Assembly (NCBI GenBank): GCA_029289235.1
Contig: JARFTZ010000062.1
Span: 1-64,000 of the forward strand
Direction: 5' to 3'
Length of the DNA: 64,000 bases
DNA from: Gammaproteobacteria bacterium
GTDB lineage: Bacteria > Pseudomonadota > Gammaproteobacteria > Burkholderiales > Rhodocyclaceae
Part shown: piece after piece, positions 19,876-23,545 of the stretch
Numbering within the stretch: the stretch's first letter is position 1
How the letters are laid out: the number at the start of each line of letters is the position of its first letter
The notes under the pieces: model-generated
Told to the model about the DNA's origin: nothing
The model's database searches: none
Seen by the model: only the letters and a program-made list of their open reading frames with translations
Program-made: the position numbers and the translations under genes

Positions 19876-20514
19876 CTACGCCCGGCCGAGCCGGTAGAAG
19901 GCCAGGCTGCCGTTGAGATTCGGGTCGTCGGTGACCGGTTGGCCGAAGGCATCGAAGGCCAGGCGTTCGCGGACCGCGATGCCGAGCTTGTCGCAGAGCG
20001 CCTCGAAGTCGGCGATGGTGAAGAAGCGCACGTTCGGCGTGTCGTACCACTCGTAGGGCAAGTCTTCGGAGACCGGCATGTGCCCGGAGGCGATGGCCTC
20101 GCGGTTCACCCGGTAGGCGAAGTTGGGAAAGCTGACGATGGCCTCGTCGGCGACGCGCAACATCTCGTTGAGGATGCGCTCGGTGCTGTGCATCGCCTGC
20201 AGCGCCTGCGAGATGATCGCGTGGCTGAACGAACGGTCCTCGAAGCCGGACAGCCCGCCTTCGATGTCGATCTGGATCACGTCGACGCCGTTGCGGATGC
20301 AGCCGAGCACGCTCTCATGCGCGATCTCGACGCCGTAGCCGGTGATCCGTTTGCTTTCGTTGAGGTAGCGCAACAGGCGGCCGTCGCCGCAGCCGAGGTC
20401 GAGGACGTGTTCGCCTTCGGGAATCCAGTGGGCGATCACCGCGAAATCGAAGCGCTCGCGCTCTTTGGCAGTCAGCGGAGTCAGCGGGGCTCCGCGCGGT
20501 CGAATGGGCGTCAT
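19876..20514 (-). CDS. metW: Methionine biosynthesis protein MetW
   Basis: 212 residues with the class I methyltransferase-fold motif [13 protein letters not shown]. MetW accompanies MetX in many proteobacteria and is needed for, or boosts, homoserine acylation by MetX. Its start overlaps the metX stop (ATGA), so the two are translationally coupled and share the riboswitch-controlled transcript. Confidence 0.93.
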
Positions 20515-21638
20515 ACCTTGATGTTCTCCAGATAGGCGCGCAGCACCGCGTGGTAGTGCGCATCGTCGAGCAGGAAGGAGTCGTGGCCGGCGTCGCAGTC
20601 GATCTCGGCGTAAGCGACGCGACGCCGGTTGTGCATCAGCGCGAAGACGATCTCGCGCGAGCGGGCCGGCGAGAAGCGCCAGTCGGTGGTGAAGCTGGCG
20701 ACCAGAAAACTGGCGCGGGCGCGGGCGAAGGCCGCGGCGAGGTCGCCGCCGTAGGCGTAGGCCGGGTCGAAGTAGTCGAGCGCCTTGGTCGTCAGCAGAT
20801 AGGTGTTGGCGTCGAAGAAACCGGCGAACTTGTCACCCTGGTAGCGCAGATAGGATTCGACCTCGAAGTCGACGCCGTAGCTGAAACTGTGCTCGCCGTT
20901 GCGCAGGTTGCGGCCGAATTTTTCGTCCATCTGGTCGTCGGAGAGGTAGGTGATGTGGCCGATCATGCGCGCCAGGCGCAGGCCGCGCGTCGGCACGACG
21001 CCGTGTTCGGCGTAGTGGCCGCCGTGGAAATCGGGGTCGGACAGGATGGCCTGGCGGGCGACCTCGTTGAAGGCGATGTTCTGCGCCGAGAGCTTGGGCG
21101 CCGAGGCGATGGCGATCGCATGGCGGATGCGCTCGGGAAACTCGAGCGACCATTCGATGGCCTGCATACCGCCGAGGCTGCCGCCGATGACCGCGGCCCA
21201 GGTGTCGATACCCAGATCGTCGGCCAGGCAGGCTTGCGCCGCGACCCAGTCCTCGACGGTCACCAGCGGGAAGTCGGCACCGTAGCGCTTGCCCGTCTCC
21301 GGGTTGATCGACAACGGTCCGGTCGAGCCATAGCAGCCGCCCAGATTGTTGACGCCGATGACGAAGAACTTGTTGGTGTCGAGCGGCTTGCCCGGGCCGA
21401 CCAGGTTGTCCCACCAGCCGACGCTGTTCGGCTTGTCGGCATAGGTGCCGGCGACATGGTGGCTGCCGGACAGAGCGTGACAGACCAGCACGGCGTTCGA
21501 GCGGGCAGCGTTGAGCGTGCCGTAGGTTTCATAGACGAGTTCGAACGACGGCAATTGGCCGCCGCCCTTCAGCGCCAGCGGCGCGTTGCGGCAGAAGCGT
21601 TGCGGGGCAACGTTGCCGACGGAATTCTCGAGTGACAT
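20511..21638 (-). CDS. metX: Homoserine O-acyltransferase MetX
   Basis: 375 residues, alpha/beta-hydrolase fold. The nucleophile elbow is [12 protein letters not shown] and the Asp-His part ends in [12 protein letters not shown]. It acylates homoserine as the first committed step of methionine synthesis. Family members use acetyl-CoA or succinyl-CoA, and many proteobacterial MetX proteins with MetW are succinyltransferases, so donor specificity is left open. Its leader (21639-21753) carries a SAM-II-type aptamer and a terminator. Confidence 0.94.
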
Positions 21639-21651
21639 GGCGTTCGTACCG

Positions 21652-21692
21652 AAAAAACAAAAGCCCAGTCGGCTATGGAAGGCGGACTGGGC
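21652..21692 (-). terminator. Intrinsic terminator in the metX leader (riboswitch expression platform)
   Basis: On the minus strand an 8-bp perfect stem GCCCAGTC/GACTGGGC (21685-21692 with 21663-21670) with a 14-base loop is followed by ttttgttttttc (21651-21662). It lies between the aptamer and the metX start, so its formation would stop transcription before metX. An alternative hairpin at 21682-21701 shares its 5' arm. Confidence 0.85.
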
Positions 21693-21697
21693 AGTCT

Positions 21698-21753
21698 CCG
21701 CTTTAGCCGTATTTGTTGAGCGCCCGCAAGCTGATCGTTCAAATCGGCGCTAG
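21698..21753 (-). promoter_or_regulatory. SAM-II-type (SAM-alpha) riboswitch aptamer
   Basis: Read on the minus strand, helix P1 is AGCGCC (21746-21751) with GGCGCT (21719-21724). The P1 loop holds ATTTG (21740-21744), which pairs with CAAAT (21711-21715) downstream of P1, giving an H-type pseudoknot. The conserved downstream GCTAAAGC (21700-21707) and the loop GCTTGC are present. These are the hallmarks I know for SAM-II, which binds S-adenosylmethionine and lies in front of metX/metA genes. A covariance search was not possible here. Confidence 0.82.
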
Positions 21754-21759
21754 GGGGCG

Positions 21760-21788
21760 AAATTACCGCCGCCCCCCGGAAAAGTCAA
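21760..21788 (-). promoter_or_regulatory. Sigma-70 promoter of metX-metW
   Basis: Minus strand: -35 TTGACT (21783-21788), 17-bp spacer, -10 TAATTT (21760-21765). The predicted start, about 21753, falls at the first base of the aptamer P1 helix. It sits immediately downstream of the ptsI stop. Confidence 0.65.
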
Positions 21789-21799
21789 ATGACCGGCGG

Positions 21800-23545
21800 T
21801 CATTGCTGCCAGGCATTGAGCCGCTCGATCTGCTCTTCGATCTTGGCCGACTCTTCCAGCCGGATGATCTTGCGGACGATCGGTTCGATTTCCGAGATGT
21901 CGCTCTGCTTGATGCGTTGCTTGACCGCCGGAATCTGCGCCGGGAACATCGAGAACTGGCGCAGCCCCATGCCCAGCAGCAAGCGGGTGAACATCGGGTC
22001 GCCGGCCATTTCGCCGCACATCGAGACCGGGACGCCGGCCTTCTCGGCGCTGCCGATGATGTGCGACAACAACATCAGCACGGCGGGGTGCAGCGGGTCG
22101 TAGAGATTGGCGACCTGCTCGTCGGTCCGGTCGATGGCCAGCGTGTACTGGATCAGGTCATTGGTGCCGATCGACAGGAAATCCAGGCGGCGCAGGAAGA
22201 TGCCGATGGCCAGCGCAGCCGCCGGCACTTCGATCATGCCGCCGACCTCTATGTTCTCGTCGAACGCGATTTTCTGCCCGCGCAGGCTCGATTTCGCCTG
22301 CTCCACGGCAGCCAGCGTCTGGTCCACCTGGAAAGCGTGCGAGAGCATCGGCACCAGGATCTTGACCTTGCCGAACTTCGACGCGCGCAGGATGGCGCGC
22401 AGCTGGGCCTGGAAAACCTTCGGCTCGGCAAGCGAGAGGCGGATCGAGCGCAGACCGAGTGCCGGGTTGTCGCGCCGGCGCTCCTCGGCCAGGTCCTCGG
22501 AAACCATCTGCTTGTCGTTGCCCAGGTCGAAGGTACGGATGGTCAACGGGCGGCCTTCCATGCCCTTGACCGCCTTGCGGTAGGCTTCGAACTGTTCGTC
22601 CTCGCTCGGCATGTCGCCTCGCCCGAGGAAGATGAACTCGGTACGGAACAGACCGACACCGTCGGCGCCGCACTCGATGACCGCCTCGACGTCCTCCGGC
22701 TCCTCGATGTTCGCCAGCAGGTCGATCTTGATCTTGTCGAGTGTCGTGGCGCGCGCGGTCTTGAGCAGCTTGAGCTTCGATTTCTCGATCTCGTACTGGC
22801 TGCGGCGCAGTTCGTATTCCTCGAGGATGCGCCGGTCGGGATTGACGATGACCACGCCACGCGTGCCGTCGACGATCAGCGTTTCCTTGTCGCGGATCAG
22901 CGCCCGCGCGTTGTGCAGGCCGAGCACCGCCGGGATGCCCATGCCGCGGGCGAGGATCGCGGTGTGCGAGGTGGCGCCGCCAACGTCGGTGACGAAGGAG
23001 GCGAAATTGTGATCCTTGAAGGCCATCACGTCGGCAGGCGAAAGATCGTGCGCGACGACGATCACGTTCTCGCCTTTGACGCCCTTGAGCTTGCTGACGT
23101 GGTCCGGGTGTTCGCTCAACTCGCGGACGACGCGTTCGACCGCCTGGCGGACATCGTAGCTGCGCTCGCGCAGGTACTGATCCTCGACATGCTCGAACTG
23201 TTCGACCAGCACCTGCATCTGCTGCACGATCGCCCATTCGGCATTGCAACGGCGCTCCCGGATGATCTGCTTGGGGACTTCCGAGAGCTCCGGGTCCTCC
23301 AGGATCATGCGGTGCAGGTCGATGAAGGCGCGCATGTCGGCCGGCGACTTTTCCAGGCTGCCTTTCATCGTGGCGAACTCGGCACGGACGCGCTGCATCG
23401 CCGCCTCGAAACGCGCGACTTCCTTTTCGACCATGCGCGGGGCAATGACCAGATGCGAGACCTCCAGGGTCGCCTGCGAGATCAGGTGCGCCTGGCCGAT
23501 GGCGATCCCTCCCGATACCGGCAGCCCGTGCAAGGTGAAGCTCAT
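21800..23545 (-). CDS. ptsI: Phosphoenolpyruvate-protein phosphotransferase (PTS enzyme I)
   Basis: 581 residues. The phosphorylated histidine is in GGATSHTAILARG, and the PEP-binding barrel carries FRTEFIFLG and CGEMAGDP. Enzyme I passes phosphate from PEP to HPr. The ATG at 23545 is used; a GTG 21 nt upstream lies within ptsH. The ribosome-binding AAGGAGAG is inside the end of ptsH. No sugar permease or EIIA gene is adjacent, so a regulatory rather than sugar-uptake PTS is likely. Confidence 0.95.
   Translation of the reverse strand: MSFTLHGLPVSGGIAIGQAHLISQATLEVSHLVIAPRMVEKEVARFEAAMQRVRAEFATMKGSLEKSPADMRAFIDLHRMILEDPELSEVPKQIIRERRCNAEWAIVQQMQVLVEQFEHVEDQYLRERSYDVRQAVERVVRELSEHPDHVSKLKGVKGENVIVVAHDLSPADVMAFKDHNFASFVTDVGGATSHTAILARGMGIPAVLGLHNARALIRDKETLIVDGTRGVVIVNPDRRILEEYELRRSQYEIEKSKLKLLKTARATTLDKIKIDLLANIEEPEDVEAVIECGADGVGLFRTEFIFLGRGDMPSEDEQFEAYRKAVKGMEGRPLTIRTFDLGNDKQMVSEDLAEERRRDNPALGLRSIRLSLAEPKVFQAQLRAILRASKFGKVKILVPMLSHAFQVDQTLAAVEQAKSSLRGQKIAFDENIEVGGMIEVPAAALAIGIFLRRLDFLSIGTNDLIQYTLAIDRTDEQVANLYDPLHPAVLMLLSHIIGSAEKAGVPVSMCGEMAGDPMFTRLLLGMGLRQFSMFPAQIPAVKQRIKQSDISEIEPIVRKIIRLEESAKIEEQIERLNAWQQ

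Follow-up and report, generated by a model that had tools for sequence, protein, structure and literature searches.

The minus strand of the window (the whole 64,000-nucleotide stretch of DNA analysed here) carries, from 21788 to 21653, a promoter of the form TTGACT-17-TAATTT followed by a SAM-II aptamer of 54 nt, a terminator hairpin with an 8-bp stem and a T-run (the U-run of the transcript), all of which lie ahead of metX-metW. The ATG of metX is at 21638, 14 nt beyond the T-run. The features of the locus are as follows.

21760..21788, minus strand: promoter, with TTGACT at 21788-21783, a 17-nt spacer and TAATTT at 21765-21760
21698..21751, minus strand: SAM-II aptamer, with P1 formed by 21751-21746 and 21724-21719 and the conserved stretches GATTTGA, GCTTGC and GCTAAAG
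21751-21746 and 21724-21719, minus strand: P1 strands AGCGCC and GGCGCT, respectively, read from the sequence
21707-21700, minus strand: conserved GCTAAAGC, read from the sequence
21698..21708, minus strand: switch strand GGCTAAAGCGG, within the aptamer, proposed 5' strand of an antiterminator
21671..21686, minus strand: proposed antiterminator 3' strand TCCG.CTT...TAGCC, from the MFE structure predicted for the transcript that stops at 21671
21686-21683, 21681-21679 and 21675-21671, minus strand: segments of that 3' strand, from the MFE fold
21653..21692, minus strand: intrinsic terminator, hairpin 21692-21663 and T-run 21662-21653
21692-21685 and 21670-21663, minus strand: terminator arms GCCCAGTC and GACTGGGC, respectively, read from the sequence
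21701-21682, minus strand: second hairpin proposed in an earlier note, read from the sequence
20511..21638, minus strand: metX (homoserine O-succinyltransferase family; 664.7 bits with NCBIfam NF047916, cut-off 560), first of the genes presumed to be regulated
19876..20514, minus strand: metW, overlapping the end of metX (TIGR02081, 245.4 bits, cut-off 189.5)

The promoter, aptamer parts, terminator, T-run and second hairpin described in the earlier note are all found on the minus strand where it had placed them and, as judged from sequence, its view of a promoter-aptamer-terminator unit that would control metX-metW is supported.

Identity of the aptamer

Comparison with Rfam using Infernal, as the earlier note had suggested, returned a full-length match to RF00521 (SAM_alpha) at 21760-21682, with an E-value of 5.7e-6 when 401 nt were searched with all 4227 families and 1.3e-5 for the genome; the score of 33.5 bits, however, is below the curated gathering score of 36. 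With default settings, Rfam reported only three tRNAs in the window and no SAM-II. Other families considered over the leader (BjrC80, Bp2_287, SECIS_4, SAM-II long loop, BcKCsr2 and Six3os1_3) are all far under their Rfam cut-offs. Among the related aptamers, RF01726 (SAM-II long loop) scores 14.2 bits on the window against a cut-off of 44, and RF01826 (SAM-V) has no match at E ≤ 10 within 21500-21900. The window shares with RF00521 the aptamer sequence, P1, the position just past a promoter, the terminator and the methionine genes, but the CGGCC/GGCCG that flanks P2 in the RF00521 consensus is, by eye, absent from the window and from 42 aligned aptamers. A covariance model, R1, was built from these 42 aptamers, which come from relatives' genomes and the window and score high by construction; the window aptamer, itself part of the training set, scores 76.9 bits. 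The RF00521 match, the pairing of P1, the presence of R1 in 68 of 80 metX leaders and the methionine targets (see below) all support the SAM-II identity given in the earlier note, and the window element is very probably a real and typical SAM-II, ordinary as a single riboswitch of a known class. R1 has only two strong matches in the genome of the window, the next being at 20.1 bits (E 0.035). The second SAM-II copy (L004 1510-1620; G000:C48:87714-87791), also with a terminator, lies before metH, and scores 45.6 bits with RF00521, over the cut-off.

Across the alignment, 96.8% of P1 cells are paired and both sides have changed at two of the six pairs. GAUUUGA, UUGC and GCUAAAG are invariant or at least 90% conserved in the 42 aptamers; GATTTGA, TTGC and GCTAAA are, we take it, the stretches that contact SAM in the crystal structure. 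The true P2 strands are presumably the GCUU and AAAGC stretches, which hardly vary across the same aptamers. The earlier note had instead assigned the pseudoknot to ATTTG/CAAAT. That pairing is supported in part, but its fifth pair is broken in 12 of the 42 aptamers and double changes are absent from all five pairs, and in the predicted ligand-free folds the two strands belong to an alternative hairpin that excludes P1; we have rejected it as the pseudoknot. Relative to shuffles, neither the whole 112-nt leader (z -1.08; 23 of 200 as good) nor the aptamer alone (z 0.53) folds better, with a folding program that cannot form pseudoknots.

Distribution, targets and flanking signals

To survey the leaders of metX, loci were chosen by their MetX protein regardless of what preceded it, taking the 80 nearest of 308 metX loci, all from named genomes and mostly from Rhodocyclales such as Propionivibrio. 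R1 matches upstream of metX in 68 of these 80 (67 full-length and one partial with an insertion), and a terminator follows in all 68; the earlier note had proposed such a survey of related metX leaders. Fifteen of the 68 leaders are identical to R1 training loci or to the window, and without them the count is 53 of 65. The element was not found with R1 in the remaining 12 of 80. One of these (L088, about 1420-1500) is a decayed metX leader that has lost the 5' part of the aptamer and kept GGCTAGAGCGG and the terminator, and inspection of the 11 others by eye showed no recognisable trace of the element.

Beyond metX, R1 was compared with 200 genomes of the order, 274 of the class and 200 of the phylum, and at E ≤ 0.001 it matches 147, 134 and 40 of them, respectively; here we take the order to be Burkholderiales (betaproteobacteria) and the class to be Gammaproteobacteria in GTDB. 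All but three (G000, G165 and G282) of the 134 class genomes are listed under another order. By comparison, RF00521 exceeds its cut-off in 37 of the 200 order genomes and reaches E ≤ 0.001 in 88; in the class the two figures are 25 and 89 of 274, and among 59 relatives they are 16 and 36.

Of 273 sources, 268 were searched with R1 (L039, L152, L214, L220 and L226 were omitted as repeats), and 256 of these have a match at E ≤ 0.01; this figure includes contig repeats, and the distinct leaders number 235. The first downstream frame, assigned by blastp or by motif, is a methionine or SAM gene at 238 of the 256 loci, repeats included. Targets assigned by blastp are metX (94), metZ (91) and metH (18), and those assigned by motif are metK (13), metX (12), metF, metN and metA (three each) and metZ (one), with 18 others. 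One representative each of metH, metZ, metK, metF, metN and metA fits its name in NCBIfam; those of metH and metN are below the whole-protein cut-off, the metH frame being cut by the locus end. One element (74.2 bits) precedes a threonine ammonia-lyase gene (L229 225-1430, minus strand).

Upstream of the aptamer, 189 of the 235 distinct leaders have TTGAC at a distance of 25-55 nt from P1, compared with 11 of 663 control windows placed farther upstream. When leaders are aligned on TTGAC, allowing a one-base spread, the -10 region has T at position 1 in 75%, A at position 2 in 74% and T at position 6 in 72%. The TAATTT of the window agrees with the sigma-70 consensus at three of six positions, and a consensus promoter scan of the window did not include TTGACT-17-TAATTT among its calls.

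Downstream, the terminator stretch of the window folds at -18.4 kcal/mol, versus -6.85 (sd 1.87) for its shuffles (z -6.18; 0 of 200 as good), and a terminator scan of the window did not include 21653-21692 among its calls. Under a loose rule (hairpin energy at or below -9 kcal/mol and five T in eight), a terminator was found at 242 of the 255 loci where the sequence runs on for 100 nt or more past the aptamer, versus 72 of 255 dinucleotide shuffles of the same stretches. An earlier count gave 51 of 52 sources, out of 55 and without L049, L050 and L052, in which L010 is cut at the contig end and the call for L025 is weak. The earlier note had called a termination platform notable for SAM-II in an apparent betaproteobacterium. 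Terminators with SAM-II had already been published by Corbino 2005 (PMC1273637) and, for alpha- and beta-Proteobacteria, by Barrick & Breaker 2007 (PMC2258182), and 222 of the 235 distinct leaders here have one. The 13 loci without a terminator include metZ leaders like those of L171 and L238, in which a C-run directly after CGCTTTAGC could pair with a G-run upstream of the start codon; read by eye, the same switch strand may act there on translation, freeing or masking the ribosome site.

Tandem copies are present at 14 of the 256 loci (L007, L015, L052, L056, L175, L176, L204, L209, L234, L239, L247, L262, L265 and L267). At these the first copy has a terminator and the second, near the start codon, is diverged (often GATTTAA and GACAACTTGC), often with a C-run and a G-run that form a hairpin across the ribosome site. 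Tandem arrangements of SAM-II that mix platforms have already been published (PMC9481103). Some tandem loci precede genes outside methionine metabolism, encoding an OsmC-like protein (L175) or an AAA/MoxR ATPase (L267), and the downstream proteins of L204, L209 and L234 have no Pfam match; at L265 the scan took a frame 266 nt downstream and not a nearer ATG. In one genome of the class (G305; L247 and L265) R1 matches 10 times, and several of the matches form tandem pairs. In other variants the P1 3' strand is separated by an additional stem or stretch from the A-rich stretch that precedes GCTAAAG (L273 324-420, minus strand; L140; L015 1673-1742; L280 311-380; and L293).

A candidate antiterminator and the proposed switch

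In the window leader the proposed antiterminator helix pairs GGCUAAAGCGGA with UCCG.CUU...UAGCC. Every 11-mer of the aptamer was tested, without preference, for complementarity to the terminator 5' arm and loop relative to shuffles of the arm. The smaller set held 34 leaders, or 35 with the window (L025, the window near-copy L039 and leaders more than 93% alike were left out), and the larger one held 130 of 242 leaders, leaving out terminator halves more than 85% alike and leaders without GCTAAA. GGCUAAAGCGG is the one segment that stands out in the 35 leaders, and it does so again in the 130 non-redundant ones, where its mean z against terminator 5' halves is -1.58 with 61% below -1. Most of the remaining 11-mers lie close to zero, and a single small dip, of -0.65, falls at CAGCUUGCGGG. 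A Watson-Crick helix of at least 7 is present in 27 of the 130 leaders, compared with 1.6% of shuffles, and 61 of the 130 pass p ≤ 0.05 individually. The signal differs by target, with a mean z of -2.02 for metZ, -1.68 for other genes, -1.19 for metH and -0.91 for metX, the weakest, in which 11 of 35 leaders are at p ≤ 0.05. Covariation in the helix is weak: base -1 is paired in 27 of 76 cases against 20.3 expected (P 0.047), and the values for bases -2, +7 and +8 are P 0.31, 0.17 and 0.03, respectively. In family f74, three copies of which were read, CGTTTTAG is in the terminator of all three, and the aptamer has GCTAAAACGA in two copies, a compensating change against CGCTTTAG/GCTAAAGCG, and GCTAAAGCGA in one (L291, L292).

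Folding of partial transcripts of the window, without pseudoknots and without ligand, predicts that those ending from 21680 to 21674 hold GCGGA/TCCGC, that those ending at 21671 and 21668 hold P1 together with the full antiterminator, and that from 21665 on the terminator wins. The second hairpin of the earlier note, GCGGA/TCCGC, does appear in these predictions, but it makes up only half of the longer antiterminator. This antiterminator is not as strong as the completed terminator and, in the window leader, occupies just two bases of the terminator 5' arm, and therefore the decision would have to be kinetic. On this sequence-based reading, the element is very probably a transcriptional OFF switch of the SAM-II class that governs metX-metW. 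Transcription would start just before P1, as the promoter suggests. With SAM bound, the 3' strand GGCUAAAGCGG would be held in the aptamer, and once polymerase had passed 21663 the hairpin GCCCAGUC/GACUGGGC with its U-run would form and transcription would end. Without SAM, GGCUAAAGCGG would pair with UCCG.CUU...UAGCC of the terminator 5' arm and loop immediately after their synthesis, and polymerase would read into metX.

The same parts could be read as a SAM-II aptamer followed by a constitutive terminator, with attenuation all the time and SAM acting elsewhere, for example on translation. This has been proposed for the S. meliloti metA leader, where a SAM-II aptamer is followed by a terminator not predicted to be SAM-responsive (PMC9373788), and the occupation of just two bases of the terminator 5' arm by the window antiterminator fits such a terminator as well. 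However, a constitutive terminator needs no complementarity to the switch strand, yet the family shows it well beyond shuffles, and no link is obvious between the aptamer and the start codon, 60 nt beyond its end. We regard this arrangement as improbable. Ranked below it is an antiterminator formed not by the GCUAAAG strand but by the P1 3' strand (GCGGGCGC), as was proposed for metXZ by Leyn 2014 (PMC4239095). This strand is GC-rich, its GCGGGC is nearly invariant, and its raw duplex energies with the terminator halves are no weaker than those of the GCUAAAG strand; against dinucleotide shuffles, however, its mean z is about 0 to +0.6 (offsets -23 to -17), as opposed to the value for GGCUAAAGCGG given above, and with no excess over shuffles it was set aside.

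Least probable of these readings, and very unlikely, is that a SAM-II-like RNA senses another ligand. Leyn 2014 took metXZ to be a new element (PMC4239095), and SAM-I variants with altered ligand are known (PMC10853860). Against this, R1 also matches ahead of metA and metZ in genomes from elsewhere in the phylum, outside this class, and the near-invariance of GATTTGA, TTGC and GCTAAA, our presumed SAM contacts, argues for the ligand being SAM.

Relation to RF02424 and the metXZ element

In a Burkholderia sRNA study Bp2_Cand287, Rfam RF02424, was placed upstream of methionine genes (PMC3521395), and published tables enter RF02424, Bp2_287 or Bp2_Cand287 as sRNA or ncRNA. RF02424 matches were examined at 30 loci (L055-L064, L293 and L294-L312), comprising 10 matches in 94 class genomes and 20 of the 41 listed matches in 200 order genomes, and at all 30 R1 and a terminator lie on the opposite strand. 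Twenty-nine of the 30 matches are below RF02424's own cut-off. The window itself has only an opposite-strand match of 19 bits to RF02424, against a cut-off of 70. The sole match over the cut-off, at 107.5 bits (L293 1501-1703), reads on the strand opposite RF02424 as a SAM-II aptamer in which a hairpin is inserted after P1 and ahead of the A-rich stretch; GCCCGC...GCGGGCTTTTTT follows, and then a frame that resembles metZ by eye. R1 matches the first 32 positions only, and there is no RF00521 match at E ≤ 1. The RF02424 consensus starts with AAAAA and a hairpin, which is the terminator read backwards. The RF02424 matches lie antisense to SAM-II and its terminator, and the Rfam family RF02424 (Bp2_287) is probably in reverse orientation.

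SAM-II has been termed most common in Alpha-, Beta- and Gammaproteobacteria (PMC2704228), and Leyn 2014 reported SAM_alpha only in Rhizobiales and Rhodobacterales (PMC4239095). The same study described, as new and separate from SAM_alpha, a metXZ element in 35 betaproteobacterial genomes, before metXW and metZ, with six conserved regions of sequence, a possible pseudoknot and terminators (PMC4239095). The window occurs in just this setting (metX-metW, Rhodocyclaceae relatives and a terminator), and shares with metXZ, as far as the published text describes it, the position before metXW or metZ in betaproteobacteria, a possible pseudoknot fold and the terminator that follows (PMC4239095). The likeness is one of genes, taxa and layout in the text, and by this match the metXZ element is probably SAM-II. 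Neither metXZ nor RF02424 was found to be equated with SAM-II in the accessible portions of the open-licence literature searched. Apparently new are the position of RF02424 opposite SAM-II, the gap between the RF00521 cut-off and R1, and the measured antiterminator.

Collectively, we consider it likely that this RNA is a main and largely uncatalogued SAM sensor in Burkholderiales and many other orders of the class, that metXZ and RF02424 are both SAM-II, and that GGCUAAAGCGG doubles as the antiterminator, with terminator loops that have evolved to mimic its complement. The difference between the RF00521 cut-off (37 of 200 order genomes) and the tuned model (147 of 200) marks a blind spot in riboswitch annotation, and two RNAs separately published as new are probably reconciled with a known class. 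The switch would be simple and testable, in that one strand is either in the SAM aptamer or disabling the terminator.
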